The position numbers were made by a program, and so were the translations under genes. 64,000 nt of DNA from Candidatus Hydrogenedentes bacterium ADurb.Bin170 (GTDB taxonomy: Bacteria; Hydrogenedentota; Hydrogenedentia; Hydrogenedentales; CAITNO01): NCBI GenBank assembly GCA_002070275.1, contig MWCY01000014.1, positions 1 through 64,000 on the forward strand, given 5' to 3'. The notes under the pieces are model-generated. The model was not told the origin of the DNA. It ran no database searches and saw only the letters and a program-made list of their open reading frames with translations. Numbering within the stretch: position 1 is the stretch's first letter; each line of letters begins with the position of its first letter. Positions 49,095 through 54,786 of this stretch are shown here, piece after piece.

Positions 49095-50657
49095 CTATTT
49101 CGCTGGTTCGGCCGCCGCCAGATAGGGAGATTTGGATAATGCCTGGGCGACATCCTGCCCGCTGGCTTTAAGATAGTCGAGGGGCCGTCCCAAATGATCC
49201 AGACGTGTGATATCCAATACGCCATCAGCACTTCCCAGCGCTGTTGCCAGATGGACGATGTAAGCGAGATCCTGAAAATCCGGTGAATTTTCAGGCGCCA
49301 GATAGTGCGTTATGCTTGAGGTGATGATTTCCGGAAGATTCCAGGCTTGGGCGAGATTCCAGCCTGCTTCCGTGTGCCCCATCCCCAGCGTTGTTTTTTC
49401 GGCTTCTTCCCGGGCGGATCCTGTCAGCGCAGCGTCGATTTTACTGTAAAGATCGGGGGCGGCGGCACCCAGCGCAAAACTGCCGATGCTGTGAAGCAGT
49501 CCGGCACAATAAGCCACATTAGGCAGCGCTTTTTCCGTAAAGGCGGCGAGGGCTGCGCTGATTTTGGCAACATGCCGGGTGTAGCGTGTCAGCTGATACC
49601 AGTCCCGTTCGCCCTGCAGAGACTGCTTGGGCGTTCCGGTGGCAACAAGGGCAATGGTTTCCGCGCCAAGCAGAGCCACGGCAACGGGCACATTGTCCAC
49701 TTTTCCTGACATACCGTAGGCAGTGCTGTTTGCCGTGCTGATGATACGTGCAGTCATGGGCGGTGAATTGGCGATAATTTGCGAAATCTTTTTGAGCCCG
49801 TCTTTATCGCCGCCCGGTACGGAGTCAATACGATTCATGATGCGCGCCGGAATTTCCAGCGTTTTCAGCTGACGCAGCTTGTCCGAGAGTGCGAAGGCTG
49901 TATCGGGAAGTTCAGCTTCTTCCTCATCGGCTGTGTCTTCGGGCACCGTCGCTTTGGTGACTTTAAAGGGTACAGGCGCATGCTCCTGAGGTGTATCTGA
50001 TTCAGCAGGTTTTATTAACCGTAATTCCGGACGCGTCGTTTTCGATTCCGGATACAGTTTTGCGCATGCCGCTTCAAAATCATCCCAGGTGCAAAGCATG
50101 GGCCGGATACGCAAACTTGTAAATTCTTCCAGCTCCTGAACGGCTTTTGTATCCATGGGGCATACCATGGCAACGGTCAATGATTTGCCCAGTTTGTCTA
50201 TAGGCAACACCATATGGGTGTCCACCATATCTTTTGGAATTAGTGCTGCCACGGTCTGTTCAATGGAAAAATGTGACAGACTGATGGACGCAGCTCCTGA
50301 TTCGCGTGCGAGGAATGCGTGCAGCTGCTCTCTGGTTGCAAAGCCCAGATCAATAATGGCTTGAAAAGTCTTTTTTCTGCTTTCTTTAGCAACAGCAGAC
50401 ACCTCTTTTCCCTGCTGCGGCGAAATCAGACCGCCGTCAACAAAGATTCCGAGGAGAGCGCTTCGCTGCAGCCCCCGCGCGGATGACAACTTCAGGTCGC
50501 TGCGCCTGATCTTTTGCGTGTCCTTTTTGCGTACCCCTTGTCGATCTACAAAGGAACCGCACTTGACACAGCGGAAATATTTGCTTTGCGAGTCGGCAGG
50601 CAAACGCATCCGTTGCCCGCATTCGCATTTGATGATCTCGGGTTTCTCTGTTGACAA
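49095..50657 (-). CDS. Zinc-ribbon / MshEN / HDOD signalling protein
   Basis: The 520-residue cytoplasmic protein has three parts. A short zinc ribbon (IIKCECGQRMRLP, then FRCVKCGSF) is followed by a GspE/PilB N-terminal (MshEN-type) domain (about residues 60-190, with LLGIFVDGGLISPQQGKEV and HMVLPIDKLGKSLTVAM). MshEN domains often bind c-di-GMP. An HDOD domain follows (about 265-480, with LRQLKTLEIPARIMNRI, HSIGSFALG and MGHTEAGWNLAQAWNLP). I take the TTG at 50657 as start because GGAGG lies 7 nt before it; an in-frame ATG further upstream lacks one. It is divergent from the coiled-coil gene, sharing its promoter region. A regulator of motility, pili or secretion is a reasonable inference. 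Confidence 0.85.
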   Translation of the reverse strand: MSTEKPEIIKCECGQRMRLPADSQSKYFRCVKCGSFVDRQGVRKKDTQKIRRSDLKLSSARGLQRSALLGIFVDGGLISPQQGKEVSAVAKESRKKTFQAIIDLGFATREQLHAFLARESGAASISLSHFSIEQTVAALIPKDMVDTHMVLPIDKLGKSLTVAMVCPMDTKAVQELEEFTSLRIRPMLCTWDDFEAACAKLYPESKTTRPELRLIKPAESDTPQEHAPVPFKVTKATVPEDTADEEEAELPDTAFALSDKLRQLKTLEIPARIMNRIDSVPGGDKDGLKKISQIIANSPPMTARIISTANSTAYGMSGKVDNVPVAVALLGAETIALVATGTPKQSLQGERDWYQLTRYTRHVAKISAALAAFTEKALPNVAYCAGLLHSIGSFALGAAAPDLYSKIDAALTGSAREEAEKTTLGMGHTEAGWNLAQAWNLPEIITSSITHYLAPENSPDFQDLAYIVHLATALGSADGVLDITRLDHLGRPLDYLKASGQDVAQALSKSPYLAAAEPAK

Positions 50658-50782
50658 CGTCTGACCTCCTGAAAAAAGGCTACAGTTCACAAACAGCACC
50701 GGTGCAGAGGAAGCCGCCGCGCGCTCTTTCGTGTAAGAACAGATCAGCCGGTTTTTCGCAATCTTGTACTGTAAGTCAAAAC

Positions 50783-50937: not shown

Positions 50938-53900
50938 ATGCATCCAAGCGAAATAGAAAAGAATATTGAAAATGCGGTGAATCTGTGCAAACAGGAGCGT
51001 CACTCCGAGGCATTGGCACTTCTGGAACTGATCCGACCCCATATACCGAACAGTCCCGTGCTTTTGCATATGCGCATTGAGGCGCTCATGAAGCTGGACA
51101 GAACCGCAGAAGCACTCCATGACTGCGAAAGACTGTTTCAGCGTCTGGAGCAGATCCGCACGGCAGGCGATCAGCTAAAGCCTTTGTTTCAGGATGGGCA
51201 GACCGAGGGGCTGAGTGCCTACGTTTCCAGTCAGACAGATCAGACCAATGAACTGAAAGCGCTGCTCGACCAGCGCAAGTCTGATGCATTGGACAAAGAG
51301 ACATTGCAGACCACCGTGTCAAAACTGGAAGCACGGCTTCAGCAGCTGCTGGCACAGCAGGAAAAGGCCGCCCATGAGCAGACAGAACTTCTGGATGAGT
51401 TGACCAATCTGAGACAGAAAGAACGGTCCACTAGCGCGGCGTTGGAGAAAGCCTACATCGACCTGGATGAAATGAAGGAAAGCCTGCAGGCGCGGGAGGC
51501 TGAGGTGGCGGAAGCTGAATCCGAACTTGCGGAAAAGGCACGCCATGTCTCTCAGCTGGAAAGTGAAGTGCGCACGCTGCAGGAGCGTTCCGACAGTGCG
51601 GTGCATACAGAAGCATTGCTGAATCAGGAACTCGCCAAACTGCGTGAGCAGGGCGATGCCAAATCGGAAGAGCTGGAAAAGGCGCGGAACGAGCTGAGCC
51701 AGTTGCAGGCGTCTCTGTCTGACCGGGAAGCGGCTATTCAGGAGGCCCAGGACAATAACCGGCGCCACGAAGAAGCCATGGAAGCCATGCGGCAGGAAAT
51801 GTCCGCTATTTATGCCGAGGCGGATAAGGCATCCGAAGCCCGTGAAACGCTGAAAAAGGAGCTGGATCAGCTTCGTGCTGCTGAACAGAGCAAAAGCGAG
51901 GCGCTGGAAGCGGCGCGGTCTCAGCTGTCTGAACTGCAAAATGCCCTTTCAGACAGGGAGCAATCGGTGGCGGAGGCTGAAAAGCGGGCACGTGAAAATG
52001 AGTTGGAAATTGAGCGCGTCCGGGAGCAGCTTAACAATACCCTGAGGCAGGCGGAGGAAGCGGAGCGTTCTGAAGCCGCTCTGGCGGAAGAAGTGGCACA
52101 GCTGCGCCAGAATGAAGCCGCAAAAGCGGCCGCTCTGGAGCAGACGCGCCAGGAAATGGGTGCATTGCGTGAGGATCTGGAGAAACGTGAAGCCCTGCTG
52201 GCGGAAGAAACCCAGAAAAGAGAGATGAGCTCCGAAGAGCTGCGCGCCCTGCGTCAGGAAAGAGACGAAATGGCAAAACGCGCGGCTTCCTTTGCTGAAT
52301 CGGAACAGCAGCTTGCGCAGGAATTGGAGCATCTGCGGAAAAACGAAGAAGAAAAATCCAGAGTGCTGGACGGCGCCCGAAGCGAAATGGATACACTGCG
52401 TTCGCAAATGGCGAAACAGCAGGAAGCTGTCCTGTCTGCCGAACAGATGAGCTCACAGCAGGATGCTATTGTTCAGGCATTGCAGAAAGAGCTGGAAGCG
52501 CTTAAACTGCAGGCAACAACCGCCTCGACTTCTGAACAGGAGCTTTCCCGGGAGGTACAGCATCTCCGGGAAAATGAAAGTTCAAAAACTTCTGCCCTCG
52601 CTGCCGCACAGAAGGAAATGGATGCGCTGCGTCAGCAGTTGAACCTGCGTGAAAAAGATGCGCAGGAAGCGGAATCACTGAATGCGCAAAAACAGCAGGA
52701 ATTGGAACGTCTTCGCAATGAACTGAACGATTTGCGCACAAAGACTGCCGAGACGCTGGATATAGAATCTGTGCTTGCCGGTGAAATGGAAAAACTCAGA
52801 CAGAATGAGGCAAGCAAAAATGAAGAGCTGGAAAAATCCAGGCAGGAATTGGAGGATCTGAAACGGGTGCTGAAAACCCGTGAAGAGGATGCGGCAAAAG
52901 CATCCAGCGAGCAGGAAGAAAGCCGTGCCACCATCCAGCAATTGGAAAACGAGCTGGCGGCACTGCGCCATCAGAACCTCGAACAGCAGTCCTCTCAGCA
53001 GGCTCTTCAGGTGGAATTAACGCAGATTCACAATGAAGCGGAGCGTCAGGGTATTCTGCAGGCATCCCCTCAGGCGGCGCAGCTCAAAAAAATACAGGAG
53101 CAGCTGCTTGCTCTCAGTGTGGCGCAGGAGGATGCCCAGCAGACAATCCGGCTCCAGGCATCACAGCAAGTTCTGGATGAGCCGTCCCAAAGGCAGACCA
53201 GTCTGCAGGCGGCCGCCAGTGCGGAGGGTGAAGGCCAGAGCGATGGCAATCAGCTTTTTGCGTTGAATTACACCATGGGTTCTTCCTCGCAGCGTTCGAC
53301 GCAGCAAGAAGCGATGCGCGTAGCGCAACAGCCATCTGACCGCCAGACCCAGCAGAAGGCTGCCGATATTTTTACAGGGCTGGAAACCACCACGTCCGGC
53401 GCTGGCAAACCGGCGGCGGGTGGTATTACGCCTATTCAGCCGGGCAGACCTGCTCCTATCCAGACCCCGCTGCATTCCGAGGCGGGGATCCCGGGATTGT
53501 CGCCTGTGAATCCTCCGCGGCGACCGCACTCCGATTCCGATGATATCGACAGCGGCTTTGATGAAATGTATCCCAAGCCCCGGGACGTATCTTTTGTATT
53601 CCCCGACCAGTCCGTGTCTATTGCCGTACCGCGCCGGCGCAGCTCAACGCCGGTAATTATTGCGGCGATCGGGCTGCTCATCGTCGCTATTGTCGGGATT
53701 GCAGGCTTTGTTATCTTTCGTGCCGCTCCCAAAACAGCAGGCGCCCCGGCAGCGCCTGCATCGCCGGCTGCTGCCCCTTCCGACGAAATCAAAATGCTGA
53801 CGATGGAATTTCCGGCCGATCGCGTGTTCGGCACTCTCTATGACCCTTCCTCCCAGCCGGCAAGCGATGCCGACTGGACACCCTATGCGCCTGCGCAGGG

Positions 53901-54786
53901 GGTCGTCGAATATGCAGAGGGCACACGCTTTCATCTGGTCGTACGGAAAGATCAGGTTCATGATCTGTCGCCGCTGGTGCCGCTGCCGGACAAATGCATT
54001 GCTTCCTTGTGGCTGCCCGATATAGACATGGATCCGGTGAACCTGAATTATTTGCAGAACCTGAAAGGACTGGATATTCTGTATATTGATCAGGAATTAA
54101 CAGTGGAACAAAAGGAAAACATCCTCAAGGGCTTCAAACGGTCCGTTACCTTCAACTGCAAAAAACCGGGAAGCATCGCCAGAGACATGACACCGCCTGA
54201 AGAACGGGTTCTGGAATTTTCGGAGGACTATACGATAGGCCGTGTTGCTATTCGCCAGTGGAATGAAGCCCAGGCGCCCTGGCAGTTTCTGGAAATGGCG
54301 AGAGGAAAGGTGACTGTTCCCGCCAAGATGGAAATCCAGATTGAAATTAATCAGGCGGAAAAAAATTTGGAAGTGCTGAATACGCTGGATGAGATGGCTG
54401 TTCATACGCTGGTGCTCAAAGGCGAAACCATTACGGATAGCTGCCTGGATGCTGTCGCGCATCTGCGCGGATTGCTTGCTCTCGAACTGATAGACACAGC
54501 CGTCACTGATGAGGGACTGCAAAAAATCATCACCATCCGGGGGCTGCAGCAGATAAAATTGCATGGTATTGCCATTACGGATGCAGGCGTTAAAGCACTA
54601 CGCGAATTTACGCAGCTGGCGCGCATCGATATTTTTGATGCACCGGGAATCACGGCGGAAAGCCTGCCGGCCTTCCGCTCCATTATGGCGCTGCGACGCC
54701 TGAATCTTGAGAAAACTTCTGTTCCCATTGAGGCGCTCCGGCAGTTTGCCCGGGAAATGAGTTCCTGTTCTATTACGCCCAATTAA
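50938..54786 (+). CDS. Large coiled-coil membrane protein with C-terminal leucine-rich repeats
   Basis: The 1282-residue product begins with TPR-like helices (about residues 1-75: KQERHSEALALLELIRPHIP). A long coiled coil follows, of which residues 154-692 are seven tandem 77-residue units. A Gln/Pro-rich linker (about 700-890) leads to one transmembrane helix (about 905-927, VIIAAIGLLIVAIVGIAGFV). The C-terminal part holds leucine-rich-repeat-like segments (LVLKGETITDSCLDAVAHLR, LELIDTAVTDEGL, IKLHGIAITDAGVKAL). There is no signal peptide, so the coiled coil should be cytoplasmic and the LRR region periplasmic. A scaffold tying a cytoplasmic assembly to the envelope is inferred. It is divergent from the HDOD gene. 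Confidence 0.88.
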   Translation: MHPSEIEKNIENAVNLCKQERHSEALALLELIRPHIPNSPVLLHMRIEALMKLDRTAEALHDCERLFQRLEQIRTAGDQLKPLFQDGQTEGLSAYVSSQTDQTNELKALLDQRKSDALDKETLQTTVSKLEARLQQLLAQQEKAAHEQTELLDELTNLRQKERSTSAALEKAYIDLDEMKESLQAREAEVAEAESELAEKARHVSQLESEVRTLQERSDSAVHTEALLNQELAKLREQGDAKSEELEKARNELSQLQASLSDREAAIQEAQDNNRRHEEAMEAMRQEMSAIYAEADKASEARETLKKELDQLRAAEQSKSEALEAARSQLSELQNALSDREQSVAEAEKRARENELEIERVREQLNNTLRQAEEAERSEAALAEEVAQLRQNEAAKAAALEQTRQEMGALREDLEKREALLAEETQKREMSSEELRALRQERDEMAKRAASFAESEQQLAQELEHLRKNEEEKSRVLDGARSEMDTLRSQMAKQQEAVLSAEQMSSQQDAIVQALQKELEALKLQATTASTSEQELSREVQHLRENESSKTSALAAAQKEMDALRQQLNLREKDAQEAESLNAQKQQELERLRNELNDLRTKTAETLDIESVLAGEMEKLRQNEASKNEELEKSRQELEDLKRVLKTREEDAAKASSEQEESRATIQQLENELAALRHQNLEQQSSQQALQVELTQIHNEAERQGILQASPQAAQLKKIQEQLLALSVAQEDAQQTIRLQASQQVLDEPSQRQTSLQAAASAEGEGQSDGNQLFALNYTMGSSSQRSTQQEAMRVAQQPSDRQTQQKAADIFTGLETTTSGAGKPAAGGITPIQPGRPAPIQTPLHSEAGIPGLSPVNPPRRPHSDSDDIDSGFDEMYPKPRDVSFVFPDQSVSIAVPRRRSSTPVIIAAIGLLIVAIVGIAGFVIFRAAPKTAGAPAAPASPAAAPSDEIKMLTMEFPADRVFGTLYDPSSQPASDADWTPYAPAQGVVEYAEGTRFHLVVRKDQVHDLSPLVPLPDKCIASLWLPDIDMDPVNLNYLQNLKGLDILYIDQELTVEQKENILKGFKRSVTFNCKKPGSIARDMTPPEERVLEFSEDYTIGRVAIRQWNEAQAPWQFLEMARGKVTVPAKMEIQIEINQAEKNLEVLNTLDEMAVHTLVLKGETITDSCLDAVAHLRGLLALELIDTAVTDEGLQKIITIRGLQQIKLHGIAITDAGVKALREFTQLARIDIFDAPGITAESLPAFRSIMALRRLNLEKTSVPIEALRQFAREMSSCSITPN
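51397..53013 (+). repeat. Seven in-frame 231-bp repeats (77 residues each)
   Basis: Units start at 51397, 51628, 51859, 52090, 52321, 52552 and 52783. Each begins E-[LVM]-x-x-[LI]-R-x-x-E-like (ELTNLRQKE, ELAKLREQG, ELDQLRAAE, EVAQLRQNE, ELEHLRKNE, EVQHLRENE, EMEKLRQNE) and continues SK-x4-L-x3-R/Q-x-E-[ML]-x2-L. The period is exactly 77 residues, eleven heptads, with no insertion or deletion in any unit. A decayed eighth unit starts at 53014 (ELTQIHNEA). Confidence 0.93.

Follow-up and report, generated by a model that had tools for sequence, protein, structure and literature searches.

A membrane-anchored rod protein with seven 77-residue coiled-coil units in the Hydrogenedentota

Introduction

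Long-period coiled-coil rods are already known, and tropomyosin, with its seven quasi-equivalent repeats on actin, is the obvious one against which to set the protein described here (the rod protein). Actin binding by tropomyosin involves surface positions as well as interfaces that are Ala-rich and destabilised (PMC2710508). Like tropomyosin, the rod protein has a long-range period, is modular in whole repeats and contains destabilising Ala layers, and from its charge pattern a parallel in-register coil is predicted for it too. In contrast, its units have 77 residues, where those of tropomyosin have about 40, and it is a bacterial protein with a membrane anchor and with TPR-like and leucine-rich-repeat (LRR) domains. 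It has the destabilised interfaces of tropomyosin without the conserved surface positions, there being no conserved recognition surface at heptad positions b, c and f.

Three other systems offer partial likenesses. The arms of SMC proteins, whose lengths change in steps (PMC5344682), are also long, gap-free coils of discrete lengths. However, the rod protein lacks their ATPase heads and hinge, its ends carrying TPR-like and LRR domains instead, and it is internally repeated rather than an intrachain antiparallel hairpin. Its best NCBIfam coil similarity, to SMC_prok_B, reaches 50.7 bits against a family cut-off of 567.35, and the same genomes encode a separate Smc. Intermediate-filament-like CCRPs (crescentin and others) are likewise long bacterial heptad rods, and the 3-residue deletions of some rod homologues resemble stutters, but the rod protein differs in its exact internal repeat, transmembrane anchor and C-terminal LRR domain. 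Golgin-type tethers are long parallel coils with one end in the membrane and a head that reaches into the cytosol. Here the analogy is one of how the protein might work and no homology is claimed; unlike golgins, the rod protein has an ectodomain past the membrane and no known vesicle cargo.

Our literature search found no description of a comparable 77-residue coiled-coil repeat and none of coiled coils of Hydrogenedentes. In the libraries searched the family is new, with neither a Pfam nor an NCBIfam model. Using computation we establish its anatomy, period, heptad phase, conservation pattern and gene neighbour. The result is a membrane-anchored rod family from a little-studied phylum and an order-wide bacterial set of about 400 natural unit sequences in exact heptad phase with recurring polar core layers, which includes natural variants of 7 to about 18 units as well as 74-residue units. 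Whether the period or the mere continuity of the coil is under selection thereby becomes a question that could be tested by resizing one gene.

Anatomy of the rod protein

The rod gene (50938..54786, forward strand) lies in a stretch of 64,000 nucleotides of Candidatus Hydrogenedentes bacterium ADurb.Bin170, the whole of which was analysed and is called the window below. Its open reading frame, corroborated by full-length orthologues, encodes a 1282-residue single-pass membrane protein composed, in order, of a TPR-like head, the rod, a variable linker, a transmembrane helix and a C-terminal beta/LRR domain, all of them on the forward strand. No Pfam model matched the window protein, no NCBIfam model attained its cut-off, and a profile search of the PDB gave an SMC4 coil (E = 7e-5) as its sole match.

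The N-terminal head (50944..51195, residues 3–86) was modelled by AlphaFold2 as helices at residues 3–18, 22–35, 40–52 and 56–83 (model of residues 1–307, mean pLDDT 89.8). These form TPR-type helical hairpins at 3–35 and 40–83, the TPR assignment coming from the sequence pattern and not from a Pfam match, and the region has zero gaps among 23 orthologues. A degenerate unit 0 follows (51166..51396, residues 77–153), recognised by an in-register profile match, a continuous helix and the conserved motif DALDKETLQxTV. The helix of the coil begins inside it, at residue 88, and in the AlphaFold2 model runs as a single helix over residues 88–306, unbroken at the unit borders 153/154 and 230/231. Seven good units, delimited by repeat analysis and a unit profile, come next: unit 1 (51397..51627), unit 2 (51628..51858), unit 3 (51859..52089), unit 4 (52090..52320), unit 5 (52321..52551), unit 6 (52552..52782) and unit 7 (52783..53013). 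The rise of a coiled coil is 0.1485 nm per residue, at which the coil of residues 77–692 (about 616 residues) would be about 91 nm long.

The end of the coil and a low-complexity, proline/glutamine-rich linker occupy 53014..53652 (residues 693–905), where the heptad signal is lost and indels are many (within the family, 16 in residues 693–769 and 87 in residues 770–860), while in several families the coil continues directly into the transmembrane segment. In two homologues (L033, L034) much of this linker consists of near-identical short tandem repeats (QQQSKRQTQQDALKIA). Just before the transmembrane helix, at about 53575–53655 of the window, close relatives share a strongly conserved juxtamembrane stretch, YPKPRDVxFVFPDxSVSxAVPR. 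Hydropathy gives one transmembrane segment only (53653..53718, residues ~906–927; AlphaFold2 helix 904–929), with arginines on its N-terminal side (PRRR). The C-terminal domain (53794..54783) was modelled by AlphaFold2 as two beta/LRR modules (residues ~953–1065 and ~1090–1280) with middling confidence (mean pLDDT 66); its Foldseek matches are LRR domains, and LRR Pfam models match up to 15 of 22 homologues.

Seven diverged units in a single heptad phase

The seven consecutive, gap-free and diverged 77-residue units described in the earlier note were confirmed. Position 51397 is in frame and codes for residue 154, and 51397..53013 comprises exactly 7 x 77 codons (residues 154–692). Autocorrelation, by identity or BLOSUM, has its maxima at lags 77, 154 and 231, with 27–29% identity against a mean of 10.8% over lags. 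Identity from unit to unit averages 30.6% over units 1–7 of the window protein, falling to 12.5–15.9% when units are rotated in phase by 7n residues and to 15.7 +/- 0.9% (maximum 18.9% in 2,000 trials) when heptads are permuted within units, a procedure that preserves composition and coil phase. The similarity of the units thus far exceeds what shared heptad composition would give. At the DNA level the units are only 40–48% identical, which rules out a recent tandem duplication or DNA-level homogenisation. To the seven good units, listed correctly before, must be added the degenerate slot at residues 77–153, which the earlier list had omitted.

The hydrophobic period is exactly 3.500, which excludes a hendecad reading (77 = 7 x 11, period 3.667), and its phase is constant over residues 89–676 and across every unit border, beyond which, from about residue 676, the heptad signal is gone. 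Heptad continuity across the borders accordingly holds, as does the earlier length estimate of some 11 nm per unit, the coiled-coil value being about 11.4 nm.

Distribution and unit number among homologues

A profile built on the first 306 residues found the rod protein in 47 of the 68 genomes of the phylum examined. Full-length orthologues are 47–69% identical, the upper value being that of a close relative, Candidatus Hydrogenedens sp., over its entire length. With the same profile the protein was not found in a set of family f5 genera, nearly complete genomes included (G020, G038, G042, G051, G052 and G055, completeness 91–100%), so that it is either dispensable or was lost in this subclade. 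One scan of all species genomes, which reaches close relatives only, gave matches in Hydrogenedentota only.

Among the 40 proteins with a rod, every one from Hydrogenedentota, the unit profile yielded 365 unit spacings, of which 330 were of 77 residues, 29 of 74 and four of 84; the remaining two were irregular and lay close to the membrane end. The period of 77 residues is dominant in all 40 and, like the continuous heptad phase, is kept order-wide; homologues with variable unit length, of the kind that would tell against the strict period proposed earlier, do exist, as a minority. In the 23 seven-unit proteins, from seven families, units 1–7 show zero indels against approximately 6,400 substitutions relative to the window protein, while the C-terminal domain shows 80 indel events in 4,341 substitutions, counts that are pairwise against this one reference and hence not of independent events.

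Unit number follows lineage on the tree, with 7, 9, 11 or 13 units, and approximately 13–18 good units in family f4. The seven-unit form is that of all of family f1, and is also found in f2, f3, f7, f8, f9, f10 and part of f11. In comparisons within f1 the best match of a unit is the unit at the same position, and this is mostly so in f10 and f2 and more loosely in f3, f7 and f11, which places the duplications before the family at least, and probably before the order.

Interface layers, outer face and strand pairing

Conservation is concentrated in the interface. Over 314 clean units the mean entropy (in bits) rises from 1.2–1.6 at a and d through 2.1 at e and g to 3.0–3.2 at b, c and f, and the ranking is the same among orthologous positions. 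Each unit has 22 core layers, 12 of them large hydrophobic and ten not, the latter being Ala (positions 19, 40, 65, 68), conserved charge (E9, K12, R33, E72) or mixed polar (44, 47). The charged layers are kept in most of the 314 units (K12 in 87%, E9 in 78%, R33 in 77%, E72 in 74%), and clusters of destabilised interface, made up of these and the Ala layers, recur in each period. A three-fold (25.7-residue) sub-period of the strong core layers was found at p = 0.013, which is only a hint given that six periods were tested.

Attractive charge pairs between g and e' (i to i'+5) are diagnostic of parallel, in-register pairing. In the window protein 22 such pairs are attractive and 3 repulsive, and 0 of 2,000 shuffles did as well; the pooled figure (845 attractive, 144 repulsive) comes from related units and so is not independent evidence. 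These charges suggest that the rod is a parallel in-register dimer, an arrangement that fits a membrane anchor located at one end. An antiparallel register of almost full extent also scores well in one of the long homologues, L069.

On the outer face the picture is different. Variability is highest at b, c and f, among units and among orthologues alike, and these positions carry no conserved recognition residues once per period. Side-by-side packing through a period in outer-face charge was also considered and rejected, as no such period was present when outer-face charge was tested for it. The earlier proposal that partners are bound at fixed intervals is therefore not borne out. A single outer residue stands apart from this variability: the glutamate at window residue 433 (unit 4, position 49, an f position) is invariant in 23 of 23 seven-unit proteins.

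These data bear on whether the rod is a true molecular ruler, a reading modelled on tropomyosin on actin and myosin in its filament, in which partners or side-by-side rods would bind one site per 77-residue unit and the period would itself be selected. On the one hand, the period is maintained over an order, the destabilising layers (Ala19, Ala40, Ala65, Ala68 and the charged ones) return every 77 residues, and at the actin sites of tropomyosin an Ala-rich, destabilised interface is paired with a sequence for recognition (PMC2710508). Rod length also shifts mainly in whole units, which may be compared with the tolerance of tropomyosin for whole-repeat deletion (PMC5344682). On the other hand, tropomyosin presents b, c and f to its partners (PMC2710508), and these are the least conserved positions of the rod, whose outer charge has no period; the runs of 74-residue units and the control coils described below count against a ruler as well. 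We therefore regard such a ruler as unlikely, and if there is one it would possibly act through nodes in the core rather than through the outer face. The charged and alanine layers would then be nodes every 11.4 nm at which the coil opens or is gripped, and the rod a modular ruler from membrane to cytoplasm with its length set in each lineage by whole modules, a picture that we hold to be doubtful.

Departures from 77 residues

The exceptions to the period are of two lengths. Runs of 74-residue units occur in family f4, where the hydrophobic period is 3.525 (74/21) and most such units have a deletion at profile positions 7–9, at the charged E9/K12 layer. In four f4 proteins (L059, L065, L067 and L074), 5–8 units of 74 residues come after 77-residue units in the same protein, and these runs no longer have the charged core layer E9/K12 (consensus ELERFRSASAEAL). 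Elsewhere, two proteins from different families (L058, unit 7 of 13; L068, unit 8 of 14) have a lone 74-residue unit midway along an array that otherwise keeps exactly to 77 residues. Both have the deletion at positions 41–42, near the polar layers 44 and 47, and this may be a conserved kink point. It seems that the coil accepts a change of phase only near polar core layers. The 84-residue units are found in two proteins from genus g36 of family f5 (L071, L072). In each, the rod opens with two such units, which are built up from 28-residue sub-repeats nearly identical to one another (VLAKRDQMLREAEE...). Such exceptions count against a ruler rigidly fixed at 77 residues.

Does selection act on the period?

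The earlier note had taken the strict length of the units to mean that the period itself is selected. This did not survive comparison with other coils of the same genomes, where Smc arms show 1 indel in approximately 6,900 substitutions and the RNase Y coil 0 indels in 1,114, so that both are about as gap-free as the rod and gaplessness is no proof of a selected period. As controls these have their limits, the SMC coil being itself length-tuned (PMC5344682) and hence non-neutral, and the RNase Y coil shorter and more conserved than the rod; they strip the argument from gaplessness of its force without proving the opposite. Indel intolerance looks generic to continuous coils, and indel depletion with length conservation has been reported for the coils of synaptonemal complex proteins (PMC8598163).

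Taken to its limit, this similarity to SMC arms, RNase Y and the synaptonemal complex (PMC8598163) would leave the 77-residue pattern as a relic of an old duplication, maintained only because coils in general tolerate indels poorly. We consider this improbable: the charged layers K12, E9, R33 and E72 persist in 314 units despite turnover at b, c and f, and such unfavourable core residues would be expected to be lost if continuity sufficed.

The reading that we favour, with a probability of roughly 0.6, is that of a parallel, in-register, two-stranded, membrane-anchored spacer rod whose length changes mainly by whole modules. Its TPR-like head would lie at the free N-terminal end on the cytoplasmic side, held off the inner membrane by approximately 616 residues of unbroken coil (one degenerate and seven good units, about 90 nm). 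The flexible linker and single transmembrane helix would form the inner-membrane anchor, and the beta/LRR domain would lie beyond the membrane on its far side, a topology predicted by the positive-inside rule. The protein would thus serve as a spacer or tether. The 77-residue unit would be an ancient duplicated module, its number presumably changed mainly by recombination between like units that adds or removes whole modules. On this account two things would keep the unit at its length: an off-phase indel breaks the coil, and changes of length arise for the most part through such recombination. Most likely, the length of the module is kept to hold the two strands paired, not to space binding partners, and the interface pattern that returns every 77 residues (polar layers E9/K12, R33 and E72, and Ala layers flanked by Leu cassettes) determines how the strands pair and how flexible the rod is locally.

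Neighbouring genes

Beside the rod gene, on the reverse strand, lies a gene for a protein with MshEN and HDOD signalling domains by Pfam (49095..50699). It is adjacent and divergent at 21 of the 32 loci with enough upstream sequence, and each of the ten families that have an informative locus shows the adjacency. This neighbour, the TPR-like head and the LRR domain could point to signalling rather than spacing. In that case the LRR ectodomain would sense, and the coil would pass a change of register or rotation to the TPR-like head, with the MshEN/HDOD neighbour taking part. A conserved phase is what signalling coils typically show, their linkers being phase-dependent (PMC5344682), but the coil of family f1 is set apart from the membrane by a long linker rich in indels, which would uncouple any rotation. 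Furthermore, HDOD proteins are multi-copy and present in nearly all genomes, with or without the rod, which makes co-occurrence across genomes uninformative and the tie one of neighbourhood only. We think it quite improbable that the rod works in this way. For the favoured spacer rod, the conserved adjacency is a lead toward a functional partner, short of proof.

Downstream of the rod gene, a cluster of S41 protease and RNase PH genes is retained only in part of family f1. The MshEN + HDOD protein of the window carries an N-terminal CxC...CxxC zinc-ribbon-like stretch.
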